Assembly: GCF_011320225.1 (NCBI RefSeq)
Contig: NZ_JAAOEN010000013.1
Span: 62,001-126,000, forward strand
Reading direction: 5' to 3'
From: Phytoactinopolyspora limicola
GTDB lineage: Bacteria; Actinomycetota; Actinomycetes; Jiangellales; Jiangellaceae
DNA length: 64,000 nucleotides
A program made the translations under genes and the position numbers. This document shows positions 11,318-55,992 of this stretch, piece after piece. The stretch's first letter is position 1. Each line of letters opens with the position of its first letter. The notes beneath the pieces are model-generated. The model saw only the letters and a list, made by a program, of their open reading frames with translations, did not search any database and had not been told where the DNA came from.

Positions 11318-11352
11318 CCCACGCCGGCTCCCCTCCCCCAGTACCGAGTCGC

Positions 11353-11475
11353 GTGATCGTCAGCAGATTTCCGCCCTCCCCACCGGTGATCGTCGCCGGA
11401 TTCGCGTCGCCATAGCGACCGGATTCCGCTGACGATCACCGGGGCTGGGGGCGGAAATCTGCTGACGATCACCGG
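11353..11475. terminator. Nested palindrome between convergent genes
   Basis: Perfect 24-bp outer arms pair 11353-11376 with 11449-11472. Inside them 12-bp arms pair CCGGTGATCGTC (11383-11394) with GACGATCACCGG (11431-11442). The element fills the gap between two convergent genes and could act as a bidirectional terminator. It contains four copies of a GTGATCGTC/GACGATCAC tag also seen at 28681, which argues for a repeated element. Confidence 0.75.
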
Positions 11476-11549
11476 ACCCGGCAACGATCAGTAGGCGGCG
11501 ATACGAGAGCATCGCAGCAGGTGAGGCGGTGCGACGTCATTCGCTGCCG

Positions 11550-12431
11550 CTAGCCCTCCGGTATTTCGACGTCGAACTCCACCCACCGATCACTCGTCAC
11601 GACGGCTGCCATCTCGTCGGCAGAGAGCGGTGGCTCCGGCCGCGAGACCTCGGAGTCCTTCTCGGTCGGCGCGTTGACCTGCCCCAGGACAACCACCAGC
11701 CCGTTCGGCAGGCTCGCGGTCGCATTCCAGAGCAGGCGGTCCGGTTCGATCTCTGGCTTGGGGTAGTACTCACCAGCCGTCACCAACAGTTCGGTGCCGT
11801 CGTCAAGCACGTCCTTCTCACAGCTGGCGGTGTCTGCGCCACCCTCATCGCCACCCGCTTCCTCGCCGGCCGCCGGGGTATCGGTGACATCCGGATCGTC
11901 GGTGACCTCCGACTCGTCGACATCTCCAGAGGCATCGATGTCGCTGCCGCCGGCGTTCGTCGGTGGGCACTCGAGCTGGGCGTCGTCGCGGTGCGCGACG
12001 CTGCCCTGGAGGAAGCCCGCTCCGGCGCCGTCATCAAAGGTGAACTCGAACCAGATCACGGTGCCGGCCTCGACACCCGGCCCCGACTCGGTGCCGCTGC
12101 GCACATCCACCACCTCACCTTCCGGCAACAGCTCACGCACGGTCGCCACGACCGAGTCCTCGGTCAGGAGTGCGCCCGGTGGAGCCGACATGACCCCTGG
12201 AGACCGCGTCGTGTCGTCATCGCCACCGCCCAACAGCGGTGGCGCGATCAGCGCCGCACCGCCGGTCGCCGCCCCTAGTGCGGCCACGCCACCGGCCATC
12301 CTCCATCGGTGCCGGCGACGCATCCGGACACCTCGGGCGATTCCGCCGGACACAAGTTCATCGATATGCGGCGGGCTCGGCGCCGCTGCCTTGCGCATGG
12401 CCTGCGCCAGCCGTTCATCAAAGTCACTCAT
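11550..12431 (-). CDS. Anti-sigma-factor-like membrane protein, partner of the SigE-type sigma factor
   Basis: A 293-residue protein: a cytoplasmic N-terminus of about 45 residues (MSDFDERLAQAMRKAA onward), one membrane helix (MAGGVAALGAATGGAALIAP) and an extracytoplasmic part with a strongly acidic Asp/Glu/Gly/Thr stretch. It lies 43 bp downstream of a sigma-factor gene, the usual place for a cognate anti-sigma factor. No HxxxCxxC zinc motif is present, so it is not of the ZAS type. The ATG at 12431 is favoured because the longer open frame would run into the sigma gene. Role inferred from gene order and topology. Confidence 0.72.
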   Translation of the reverse strand: MSDFDERLAQAMRKAAAPSPPHIDELVSGGIARGVRMRRRHRWRMAGGVAALGAATGGAALIAPPLLGGGDDDTTRSPGVMSAPPGALLTEDSVVATVRELLPEGEVVDVRSGTESGPGVEAGTVIWFEFTFDDGAGAGFLQGSVAHRDDAQLECPPTNAGGSDIDASGDVDESEVTDDPDVTDTPAAGEEAGGDEGGADTASCEKDVLDDGTELLVTAGEYYPKPEIEPDRLLWNATASLPNGLVVVLGQVNAPTEKDSEVSRPEPPLSADEMAAVVTSDRWVEFDVEIPEG

Positions 12432-12474
12432 CGTCTTCCTCTTCCTCGTCGAGACGGTCGGTGTGGTGGACCGC

Positions 12475-12978
12475 TCATTGGAGCGCGGAAAGGTCACCTA
12501 GGTCGGCGCGCAGAAGCTCACGTAGCCGCTGCAATGCCCGGAAGCTGCGAGACTTCACCGCACCTGCCGAAATGCCGAGTACGGTGGCCGTGTCATCGAC
12601 GCTGCGGTCTTCCCAGTAGCGCAGCACCAGAACGGCCCGGTCTCTGGGATGTAACTGATTCAGCCCGGCCATCAGCGTCATCCGGAGCGTGACGTCGCCG
12701 TCGTCGATGGGACTGTCTGGCATGTTCCCGGCCGGCGACTCCGCCGAGCTTCGCCGTCGCCGATGCGCCAAGTACGTCCGAACCAGCACGGTGTGGGCAT
12801 AGGCCATAGGGTTGTCCACACTCTCCGGCCCCCGCCACCGTCGGTACATCTTTCCCAACGTTTCTTGCACCAGGTCTTCGGCCAGATGCCAGTCTCCGGT
12901 CAGCCACCAAGCCGAGCGGAACAGTGGCCCGCCACAGGCAACCGCGAAGTCTCTGAAGCCGTCCTCCACTTGTGCCAC
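12475..12978 (-). CDS. SigE-family (ECF-like) RNA polymerase sigma factor
   Basis: A 167-residue group-4 sigma factor. Region 2 includes DWHLAEDLVQETLGKMYRRW, and region 4 includes the helix-turn-helix DDTATVLGISAGAVKSRSFR near residue 135. The GTG at 12978 is preferred to the in-frame ATG at 13008 because GGAGGGG lies 4 bases before it and inside the longer reading. It matches the actinobacterial SigE family defined by the short region-2 to region-4 linker and the spelling LRYWEDRS. It is co-transcribed with the anti-sigma-like gene downstream. The signal it answers to is not evident. Confidence 0.9.
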   Translation of the reverse strand: MAQVEDGFRDFAVACGGPLFRSAWWLTGDWHLAEDLVQETLGKMYRRWRGPESVDNPMAYAHTVLVRTYLAHRRRRSSAESPAGNMPDSPIDDGDVTLRMTLMAGLNQLHPRDRAVLVLRYWEDRSVDDTATVLGISAGAVKSRSFRALQRLRELLRADLGDLSALQ

Positions 12979-13082
12979 GTGTCCCCTCCGTTTAACGCTC
13001 GTACTCATCAGAGTCGGCGGGGGTGCCCTCAGGTTTCACCCGAGTTCACGCGCGGGATCACCACCGGCGATGCTGCGACTGG

Positions 13083-13195
13083 CCACAAGGACGCTTACTG
13101 CGACGACTGCGTTGCCACAAGGAGCCTTACTGCTGCCATAGCAACAACGAGGAGGCTTACTGCAACGCGCAGCTGGCCACAAGGAGGCTTACTGC
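13083..13195. repeat. Array A: four copies of a CACAAGGAGGCTTACTGC repeat
   Basis: Four direct copies of a roughly 20-bp unit, best copy GCCACAAGGAGGCTTACTGC at 13176-13195. Others are near 13083 (AGGACGCTTACTGC), 13115 (AGGAGCCTTACTGC) and 13145 (GAGGAGGCTTACTGC). The CTTA cores end at 13097, 13129, 13159 and 13191, so the period is 30-32 bp with variable spacers of about 11-12 bp. The array lies in the gap between the sigma factor start and the Rrf2 stop. A related, denser array is at 54544-54863. Function unknown. Confidence 0.85.
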
Positions 13196-13215
13196 AGACG
13201 TGGGGGTGGGGCCGG

Positions 13216-13680
13216 TTAACGACGGGTCCACGAATCCGGCCGCACCAGCAACTCGGTGACCTGCGGCGGCAGCTCCCCGCTGAGAATGTCGGCGACCGTG
13301 GTGGTCTCCAGAACATCGCGCAGGCTCGCGCGCAGCGCCACCCACACCTGGGTCAGCGGTGCAGCGGGCCCGGGATACAAGGTGTCTTCCGGCGGCAGCC
13401 CGCGCACCGCCGCCAACGGCCCCTCGGTGGCCCGCACGATCTCGGCGAGGGTGATGTCCTTCGGATCGCGAGCCAGCCGGTATCCGCCGGACGCACCTCT
13501 CTGGGCATCGATGAGCCGGGACCGGCGGAGGTCTCCAAGAATGGCCTCTAGAAATTTGCCGGGTATGTCCTGGGCGTCGGCAAGGCGCTGGCGGGTGGCC
13601 GAAGCCGGGCGGATCGAGGCGAGCTCGATGACGGCCCGGACGGCGTAGTCGGCGCGTGCGGTCACATGCACGCTCATCAT
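13216..13680 (-). CDS. Rrf2-family transcriptional regulator
   Basis: About 154 residues. The Rrf2 winged-helix signature is clear: ARADYAVRAVIELA at the N-terminus, the recognition-helix region DAQDIPGKFLEAILGDLRRS, and the wing QRGASGGYRLAR. The usual three Cys of iron-sulfur Rrf2 proteins are absent from the visible sequence, so it is not an obvious Fe-S sensor. Start uncertain (ATG 13680 or 13677); the longer frame upstream would run through the dyad operator. It is divergent from the acyl-CoA mutase gene, with a perfect dyad between them that is the likely binding site. Confidence 0.88.
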   Translation of the reverse strand: MMSVHVTARADYAVRAVIELASIRPASATRQRLADAQDIPGKFLEAILGDLRRSRLIDAQRGASGGYRLARDPKDITLAEIVRATEGPLAAVRGLPPEDTLYPGPAAPLTQVWVALRASLRDVLETTTVADILSGELPPQVTELLVRPDSWTRR

Positions 13681-54203: not shown

Positions 54204-54909
54204 GCCGCCCACCCACTCCTTCAACGTCTCGGCGGATGAGGCGCCCGCACCGCACGACCGTTGAGGCGGATGCGCCGCCGAACTGGCATAGAACGATCAC
54301 GCTCCTGTCGGCATTATCCGTGCAGGCAGCTCTGTCCAGCAAGAGCGCGCGAGCACCACCAGCATCCGGTGAGACGGCAGCCCGGACGACGGCGGTTACG
54401 GCGACCGCGGTAGGACAACAGCACCCAGGACCACGACATCAGCGGTGCGGGCACCCGCCGCGTGCGCGCACCCGACCGCGATGATCGAGGTCGGCGCTCG
54501 GAGTAAGAGATCGTCTCCCGGCGCCACGCAGCCGGCCAGCAGTCACAAGCCTCCTTGTGGCTCCGCCCGCCCGGGCACGCGCTTCCTTACTGTCGCCAGG
54601 GCAACAACAAGCCTCCTTATGCCGAGATTGGGACGGCAGCAAGGTTCCTTGTGGTCCCGTGGGCCCTGCCCCCGGGGCACAAGGAGGCTTATGGCCGGAT
54701 AACCGTCGCCATGCTCGCCAGCGAGGCGGTAGCCCCGCCTTGGCGGCAGCCACAAGGAGGCTTACGCCCCAGGTCACCACCACAATAAGGAAGCTCACTG
54801 CTGCCCTGGCGACAGCAAGGAAGCTTATGCCCCACGCACGGCAGCCATAAGGAGGCTTGTGGCTGCTTGAGTGGCGGGGCGGGGTCAGGGGGCGGGGTAG
54901 GAGACGGGG
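54204..54909. other. Gene-free 0.7-kb region carrying repeat array B
   Basis: No supported gene on either strand; open frames here arise from repeated sequence and GC bias. From 54544 it is filled by the repeat array described separately. 54863-54909 is a G-rich, low-complexity stretch (GGCGGGGCGGGGTCAGGGG) leading into the ATPase stop on the other strand. Confidence 0.65.
54544..54863. repeat. Array B: about nine copies of the CACAAGGAGGCTTA repeat in both orientations
   Basis: Forward copies: CACAAGGAGGCTTATGG (54679), GCCACAAGGAGGCTTACG (54749), AATAAGGAAGCTCACTGC (54784), GCAAGGAAGCTTATGCC (54815) and CCATAAGGAGGCTTGTGGC (54845). Reverse or mixed copies: CACAAGCCTCCTTGTGGC (54544), CTTCCTTACTGTC (54592), ACAAGCCTCCTTATGCC (54606) and AGCAAGGTTCCTTGTGG (54639). 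Spacing is irregular (about 30-70 bp), unlike array A. Most forward copies place an AAGGAGG sequence 3 bases before ATG, ACG, GTG or a similar triplet. Confidence 0.82.
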
Positions 54910-55992
54910 TTAGGAGAGGGCAGGCGGGGCGGGCCGGGGCAGGGTCAGGGCCGGCGTGGGTGGCGGGCCGACCGGGCCAGCGAAGTGGCAGGCGGCCCAT
55001 TGCCCGTCGCCCATCGGCCGGAGTGCGGGCTCTTCCTGGGCGCAGACCTCCTCGGCCTTCCAGCACCGCGTCCGGAACCGGCAGCCGGAGGGTGGGCGGA
55101 CCGGGCTGGGAACATCACCGGTGAGGACCTTGCGGCGCCGTTCGGTCTCGACGTGTGGGTCCGGGATCGGCACCGCCGACAACAACGCCTGCGTGTAGGG
55201 GTGCCGCGGCCGCTCGTACACCGCGTCGCCGCCCACCTCGACGATCTTGCCGAGGTACATCACCGCCACGCGGGTCGATAGGTGCCGCACGACGGCGAGG
55301 TCGTGGGCGATGAACAGGTAGGTGAGGCCGAAGCGCTCTTGCAAGCTCTCGAGCAGGTTGATGGTCTGCGCCTGGACCGAGACGTCCAGCGCGGACACCG
55401 GCTCGTCGGCGACGATGAACTCCGGCTCCAGCACCAGCGCCCGTGCGATACCGATCCGCTGCCGCTGCCCACCGGAGAATTCGTGCGGATATCGTTCCTC
55501 CCACGCCGGGCTGAGCCCGACCGTCTCCAGCAGCTCAGCCACCGTTCGGCGGCGGCTGCGCCAGTCGCCCACCCCGTGGACCAGCATCGGCTCGGCGATG
55601 GATTCCCCCACCGTCATCCGCGGGTTCAGCGACGCGTAGGGGTCCTGGAACACCATCTGCATGCGGCTGCGCATCCGGCGCAACTCGGCGCGGGACAACG
55701 TGGTCAGCTCGGTGCCGTCGAATCGCACCGACCCGGCGGTGGGCCGCTGCAACTGCAAGATGGCCCGGCCGGTGGTCGACTTGCCGCAGCCGGACTCGCC
55801 GACCAGGCCGAGTGTCTCCCCGCGTGGGATATCGAGGTCGACGCCAGCGACGGCGTTGAGCAGGCTGCGCCGCCACCGCGCGGGGCCGGCCTCGCGGACC
55901 CGGAAGGCGACCTCCAGGCCCCGGACCGACACCAACGGCGCGACCCCGGTGTCTGGTGCGTCCGGGTTTTCGACCACCGCTGGCTCAGGCAT
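54910..55992 (-). CDS. Oligopeptide-type ABC importer ATPase, DppF-like (second system)
   Basis: A 360-residue ATPase: Walker [12 protein letters not shown]-loop [15 protein letters not shown], signature [15 protein letters not shown] and Walker [13 protein letters not shown]. The C-terminal [16 protein letters not shown] is the Cys-containing oligopeptide-importer tail, and a Pro-rich tail ends the protein. The ATG at 55992 is preferred; it overlaps the partner ATPase by 8 bp. It should pair with the permeases at 57819-59664, which lie on the opposite strand. Confidence 0.92.

Follow-up and report, generated by a model that had tools for sequence, protein, structure and literature searches.

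Within the window (the whole 64,000-nucleotide stretch of Phytoactinopolyspora limicola DNA analysed here), repeats of one kind form two arrays, A and B, each next to the 3′ end of a gene (Table 1). A search for an empty site corresponding to array B found none, the query, the ABC transporter ATPase beside the array, having many paralogues. Array B is composite: two four-unit arrays stand inverted to each other with one further unit between them, giving nine units in 54538–54867, in agreement with the original prediction of about nine copies, in both orientations, in 54544–54863. Eight of the units are clear; the doubtful one, at 54583, scores 1.7 against a profile threshold of 8.5 and was accepted only because it lies at the expected step. 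Stretches of 25–48 nt in the right half are 81–92% complementary to the left half, and because the two four-unit arrays are inverted, array B folds as one long hairpin, and strongly so (z = −10.5); the fold of array A, a plain four-unit array, is no better than that of shuffled sequence (z = −0.29).

Table 1. Repeat arrays and adjoining genes in the window.
Feature	Position	Strand	Description
Rrf2-family regulator gene	13216..13680	-	PF02082; 3′ end ~20 bp from array A
Array A	13079..13197	+	plain four-unit array; unit centres 13091, 13123, 13153, 13185; steps 32-30-32
Array B, left half	54538..54657	-	four-unit array; unit centres 54645, 54613, 54583 (degenerate, doubtful), 54551; steps 32-30-32
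Array B, lone extra unit	54673..54697	+	centre 54685; 40 bp to left array, 73 bp to right array
Array B, right half	54744..54867	+	four-unit array; unit centres 54758, 54791, 54821, 54853; steps 33-30-32
Oligopeptide/dipeptide-type ABC transporter ATPase gene	54910..55992	-	3′ end ~48 bp from array B

The motif AAGGAGGCTT, allowing one mismatch, occurs 12 times in the window compared with 0.96 expected (0 of 100 shuffles reached 12), and 6 of the 12 matches lie inside the array B cluster. Self-complementary copies had also been proposed, and CACAAGCCTCCTTGTG at 54544–54559 is indeed palindromic apart from its 4-bp centre. Start-like triplets do follow AAGGAGGCTT, as had been noted from the sequence: ATG at 54681, ACG at 54754 and GTG at 54849. 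The reading frames from this ATG and GTG comprise 3 codons each, and that from the ATG behind the AAGGAAGCTT unit at 54817 comprises 7.

Enrichment of the motif in the genome had been set beforehand as a test, and it proved strong: in the P. limicola genome (6.59 Mb, 40 contigs, the window lying on contig 5), CACAAGGAGGCTTACTG with up to three mismatches had 201 matches, the reversed-motif control 11. With at most one mismatch, CAAGGAGGCTTACTG was found 112 times (control 0), and 1, 0, 0, and 0 times in four congeners; CACAAGGANGCTTACTG, likewise with at most one mismatch, was found 97 times, and once each in 3 of 392 other genomes of a class sample. Two units in register (AAGGANNCTT, 20–24 bp gap) occurred 115 times in P. 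limicola, twice in P. halotolerans (G002), and once in another congener, G001, but in none of the other 390 of 393 genomes, the reversed control matching six genomes one to two times each. A scan of named genomes also gave single matches in a Thermoplasmatales archaeon and a Rhodocyclaceae bacterium.

As the unit drifts between species, these first searches understate its range. The congener variant TCCAAGGAGGCTTGGTGC had 29 matches in P. halotolerans versus 7 for the control, and was near the control level elsewhere (8 versus 6 in G004, 4 versus 8 in G003, both congeners; 5 versus 4 in G001; 6 versus 7 in P. limicola). Among 22 genomes of the family, a search for pairs of right half-sites had 17 matches in P. 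halotolerans, 2 in G004, 1 in G003, 4 (control 1) in G011, which belongs to another genus of Jiangellaceae, and 0 in P. limicola; matches in G007, G015, G016, and G019 were not unit-like and were set aside by eye. The four matches in G011 are two-unit modules around a TCGCY..GCRA linker. Array B is a member of an extragenic repeat family of Jiangellaceae that is, among the genomes searched, most abundant in P. limicola. The family is real, strongly enriched, and lineage-specific, and has an unusual DNA-phase grammar. Literature searches by topic, in a source whose coverage leaves out most subscription journals, retrieved no description of these repeats; a search by motif letters matched one 13-letter term only, in articles that by title all concern muscle satellite cells.

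The unit is an imperfect inverted repeat of ~20 bp, with the form GCMACAAG-GAGG-CTTACTGC in P. limicola and the variants CCRWGGARGCTTGGTGC in P. halotolerans and ACACCRAGGAAGCTYGGTGT in another genus; the half-site differs by species, being CTTACTG in P. limicola and CTTGGTG in its congeners. In the canonical array, units of the form CAAGGAGGCTTACTG follow each other at centre-to-centre steps of 32/33-30-32 bp. By unit profiles, 54 arrays were scored in P. limicola and 25 in the other genomes (G002, G003, G004, and G011; “foreign” arrays), a single three-unit array in G001 being left out of the counts. The P. limicola arrays, which lean toward canonical units because they were drawn from the listed matches (about half of the 201), were tested for three motifs of larger elements and classed by these, not by hand, as “long” (at least one motif nearby; 32 arrays) or “short” (none; 22 arrays). 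Arrays contain 2–7 units (array B, with eight scored, counts as two) and are mostly single and head-to-tail.

In a profile search that could hide off-phase units, 61 of 66 steps in short arrays measured 30–34 bp (the others 40, 42, 43, 62, and 73 bp), 59 of 66 in foreign arrays 30–33 bp (the others 35, 42 [three], 44, 54, and 63 bp), and 90 of 91 in long arrays 30–33 bp (the other 62 bp). Twelve steps of the short and foreign arrays fall outside 29–34 bp, and even these lie preferentially close to multiples of 10.5 bp (null p = 1.5e-4), although 62 and 63 are double steps, a single array contributes the three foreign values of 42, and 35 and 54 do not fit the phase. Of 17 switches in orientation between adjacent units, 14 have a step of 30–33 bp and 3 one of 40–43 bp, that is, the step survived inversion of single units in 17/17 cases, which supports phasing; long arrays contain no such switches. 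With one module taken per locus, column identity was 0.78–0.88 in the units versus 0.51 in the 32-bp linker of short arrays, 0.73–0.77 versus 0.45 in the other genomes, and 0.82–0.94 versus 0.69 in long arrays, a contrast inflated by the use of the profile to locate the units. Identity was intermediate in the linker of the 30-bp pair (TCGCC..GGCGA), at 0.58–0.81 (0.58–0.72 in short and foreign arrays); a 41-row set had the middle step fixed at 30 and is no evidence for that step. The 32/33-30-32 pattern reflects shared descent in part, many arrays being copies, including L042, L043, and L049 of the short class.

With genes called by a custom script, only 1 of 56 clusters in P. limicola and 1 of 25 foreign arrays lay inside a called gene. 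Gaps between convergent genes held 6 of 22 short, 9 of 25 foreign, and 16 of 26 long arrays (both neighbours known), compared with 10 of 105 background gaps (≥60 bp, from nine 20-kb stretches and the window); the excess for short and foreign arrays together (15/47) is significant (p = 1.9e-5). Divergent gaps were few (2 short, 3 foreign, and 1 long), the deficit for short plus foreign arrays being non-significant (p = 0.07). The 3′ end of a neighbouring gene was within 50 bp in 13/26 cases for short, 18/31 for foreign, and 0/41 for long arrays (counts without a background set), the last because the element sequence buffers the long arrays. Relative to tandem genes, arrays are oriented at random (16 same, 20 opposite), without strand bias. 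The flanking genes are mixed, the commonest Pfam family among 95 flanking proteins being ABC_tran (6).

For array B, three speculative possibilities had originally been offered: a mobile palindromic element that multiplies locally, a decoy for the anti-Shine-Dalgarno sequence, or a cluster of protein-binding sites. The last of these is the best supported, by helical phasing that is independent of unit orientation. We therefore favour, with a probability of roughly 0.55, the reading that the arrays are a lineage-specific, REP-like family of phased binding arrays for a candidate protein. As the quasi-palindromic site keeps its centre spacing when inverted, the anatomy of the arrays suggests that they are read by a dimeric protein and not by the ribosome. 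Each unit would bind one dimer of a putative DNA-binding protein, and the step of three (or four) turns would set the dimers on one face of the duplex, leading to cooperative binding. With less weight, arrays bound behind genes might form a roadblock, or a topological boundary, that separates transcription units, as has been hypothesised for REPs; alternatively, the bound arrays might be a by-product of sites that serve transposition. The fairly conserved linker of the 30-bp pair is more than a pure phasing model needs and counts against it, as do, for the favoured reading of the arrays as a whole, the partly shared descent of the step pattern, the linker pairing above shuffled in the long class, and the absence of array A in the congeners (see below).

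A precedent for the phasing is offered by NrdR box pairs, in which spacers of 15–16 bp put the sites about three turns apart, measured between centres, and spacers of 24–27 bp give a four-turn variant (PMC12051234). The arrays follow the same three-turn/four-turn grammar, a likeness of spacing. NrdR boxes sit upstream of ribonucleotide reductase operons, whereas the arrays comprise 2–7 sites, mostly at gene 3′ ends, at dozens of loci; no ribonucleotide reductase gene was among the 25 commonest of the 178 Pfam families in the 95 flanking proteins. If a protein binds the arrays, they would give a direct handle on how neighbouring transcription units are separated in high-GC actinobacteria, and the change of the half-site between species would make co-evolution of the protein with dozens of sites testable. 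A more far-reaching version, in which Jiangellaceae possess an undescribed chromosome-wide system, with a cooperative protein coating phased dyad arrays that sit behind genes and between convergent ones, to form transcriptional or topological boundaries and the site drifting in concert with the protein, is speculative and, in our estimate, rather doubtful.

At the matching place, array A is absent in all four congeners (G001–G004): the Rrf2-matching region lies 36 bp from the neighbouring gene (matched by eye) in G001 and touches the gene end in G002, G003, and G004. Not all of the arrays can therefore be conserved regulatory parts. In the window, ~1.9 kb including array A (11318–13215) separates two genes that are adjacent in the four congeners, either by lineage-specific insertion or by loss elsewhere; a called gene within it (11550–12299) had no match in Pfam or NCBIfam. 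In G002 and G003, by contrast, the gap between glgE and a phosphorylase-domain gene carries an array at positions that can be aligned, with at least five units in one species and two in the other. The context of an array on the ilvD side is common to P. limicola, G002, and G011, and a fatty-acid-oxidation gene lies beside arrays in both P. limicola and G004, the exact place differing in either case. From the absence of array A, the resizing at glgE, and the contexts common across species, it follows that arrays are gained, lost, and resized, and that a few may be old.

The main rival of the phased-protein reading is that the arrays are the ends of non-autonomous transposable elements, their phased units being bound by a transposase or accessory recombinase; this we regard as possible, though clearly less probable. 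The absence of array A in the congeners is in its favour, and array B, as an inverted array pair, could itself be a small element with array-type ends. Three of the short arrays, L042, L043, and L049, are dispersed copies of one ~270-bp block (longer in L043) that starts beside the first unit, and 32 of the 54 arrays lie near at least one of the three longer-element motifs. Long arrays have flanks in common; in their consensus, the array is preceded by a strong palindrome and followed by GATCAGATGCA/GATCAGGTGC motifs. Genome-wide, the palindrome motif had 97 matches (control 1) and the end motif 155 (control 0), with few in congeners. Inverted GATCAGGTG-type ends at most 1.7 kb apart were found in 8 of 50 array stretches (L044, L046, L061, L062, L068, L069, L080, and L086). 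Against this reading, the 25 commonest of the 178 Pfam families in the 95 flanking proteins include no transposase, a search of five genomes of the genus for the Y1 type of transposase found none, inspection by eye of 19 end pairs revealed no evident target duplication, and most arrays are single, direct repeats and do not pair up as inverted ends. The BrickBuilt MITE of Porphyromonas gingivalis likewise carries a tandem-repeat tract in an intergenic element that is dispersed and bounded by small inverted repeats (PMC4596501). There, the repeats are of 23 nt without spacers, whereas the Phytoactinopolyspora units are separated by linkers of ~15–18 bp and also occur outside recognised larger elements.

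The idea of a mobile palindromic element that multiplies locally stands in part. The resized glgE array and the copies within larger elements agree with it, but the proposed REP-type tyrosine transposase was not found: PF01797 had a match in 0/5 Phytoactinopolyspora genomes (drafts of 30–70 contigs), while the control search found it in 5 of 14 known genomes.

Resizing could also be neutral. Were the arrays minisatellite debris, that is, a once-copied repeat resized by slippage without any bound protein, copy numbers of 2–7 units, the difference in the glgE array between two species, and the almost identical 30-bp unit repeats of L053 would be explained. The step is, however, retained across orientation switches and in four-turn steps; where arrays have no flanks in common, the units are less variable than the linkers (subject to ascertainment bias); and another genus has kept the step with a variant of the unit. 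Neutral debris is, therefore, an unlikely account of the family.

At the level of RNA, the units could act as a decoy or sponge for the anti-Shine-Dalgarno sequence or as hairpins displaying AAGGAGG. An AAGGAGG core is present in many units, some are perfect stem-loops, and array B as a whole folds strongly, its halves being inverted copies. The centre reads GGAGG, however, in only 121 of 211 units in P. limicola and 32 of 91 elsewhere, and the triplet that follows the motif is ACT in 125 of the 211. A start codon 3–10 nt behind GGAGG is found in 30/211 P. limicola units and in 31/91 elsewhere; in these other species this amounts to 31 of 32 GGAGG units, because the variant unit contains GGTG. 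The median open frame behind GGAGG and start codon was 54 codons there and 28 in P. limicola, frames being bounded near 131 codons by the length of the stretch read. Base pairing between the arms of the unit was at about the shuffled level, and no covariation was detected in short or foreign arrays; the commonest fourth arm pair is C with A (78 of 123 long and 44 of 88 short units in P. limicola). The exception is the outer arm position 2/23 of the long class, with 0.53 paired versus 0.31 in shuffled arrays. In the 30-bp linker of short and foreign arrays, pairing departed from the shuffled level by no more than about two standard deviations, whereas four positions of the long class lay above it (0.94 versus 0.91, 0.71 versus 0.61, 0.44 versus 0.40, and 1.00 versus 0.95). 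Such a signal can arise from relatedness, the long arrays being almost copies of each other, but the linker of the long class may be structured. Rfam models gave no match at gathering score in 8 loci, the best for array B being 13.3 bits versus a cut-off of 50. With unit composition, following triplet, strand neutrality (see the orientation counts above), and the lack of arm covariation all against it, Shine-Dalgarno mimicry was rejected. The unremarkable fold of array A also counts against a role as RNA. The RNA-level reading is, thus, largely refuted and very improbable, the ribosome decoy faring worst of the three options first considered.

Discussion of high-copy extragenic repeats usually centres on RAYT (REP-associated tyrosine transposase) and hairpins. 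The phased arrays would be noteworthy in combining REP-like placement with a clear three-turn DNA grammar, with no RAYT found and a hairpin that is not maintained; for the last two reasons, the family was not filed as REP. REP/BIME are described as clustered, often species-specific extragenic repeats of high copy number that lie for the most part downstream of genes and between convergent or tandem ones, with hypothesised roles of the clusters in supercoiling and termination (PMC3733652). Among known kinds of repeat, their GTAG and CGTC super-families come closest to the arrays in position and abundance, and also resemble them in clustering. That the arrays are classical REP/BIME repeats mobilised by RAYT is nevertheless the least probable of the readings considered, and the assignment was rejected, given that PF01797 was not found in the five genus genomes and that the arrays are mainly head-to-tail, phased, and without maintained stems. 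The unit consensus, on which this point was judged, has no GTAG tag beside the palindrome. In copies from the other genus and in some congener copies, the unit is followed by TGTCG, which there belongs to the arm and is not an unpaired tag.

Two further candidates were tried and rejected. A CRISPR array consists of identical repeats and unique spacers of similar length, with cas genes; the units here measure ~15–20 bp and are variable, and the linkers of ~15–18 bp are partly common to several loci. As to phage or plasmid origin, viral contigs searched with one exact pattern gave 0 matches, and phage records searched with the long element gave none. Plasmids gave two matches: one, 28 bp long and exact (E = 7e-4), links an Azospirillum gene to the middle part of array B that is not unit sequence, and was judged unrelated; the other had E = 0.6.

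Some loci are of interest in their own right. Seven contigs of P. limicola start or end near an array (C6, C7, C10, C13, C21, and C28 within 500 bp, C11 within ~2 kb), and therefore the repeats probably broke the assembly. In P. halotolerans, a four-unit array (L115:2985–3120) ends ~26–28 bp before a gene start, that is, on the promoter side; the gene, whose first residues read MCGIVGYVG, is presumably glmS. Pairs of the palindrome CGCTACCGCCAGATGGCGTTAA and its inverse bracket single genes at 3 of the 18 palindrome loci read (L122:1900–3250 on C8, L125:1949–3710 on C40, and L197:2550–3285 on C24), which are possible one-gene cassettes. One of these genes is AbiEi-like by weak PADLOC matches; another resembles the DS11 CBS-domain anti-phage protein (217.9 bits, below the cut-off of 260) and has restriction-enzyme-like PADLOC matches at its N-terminus. 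Finally, GATCAGGTGCACAACGG ends occur at L061, L062, L080, L117, L123, L124, L126, and other loci, several as inverted pairs 0.1–1.5 kb apart, close to the stop codons of convergent genes. They could be transposon ends or a bidirectional 3′-end structure; some variants (e.g., at L061) change at both ends jointly, as if complementarity were kept.
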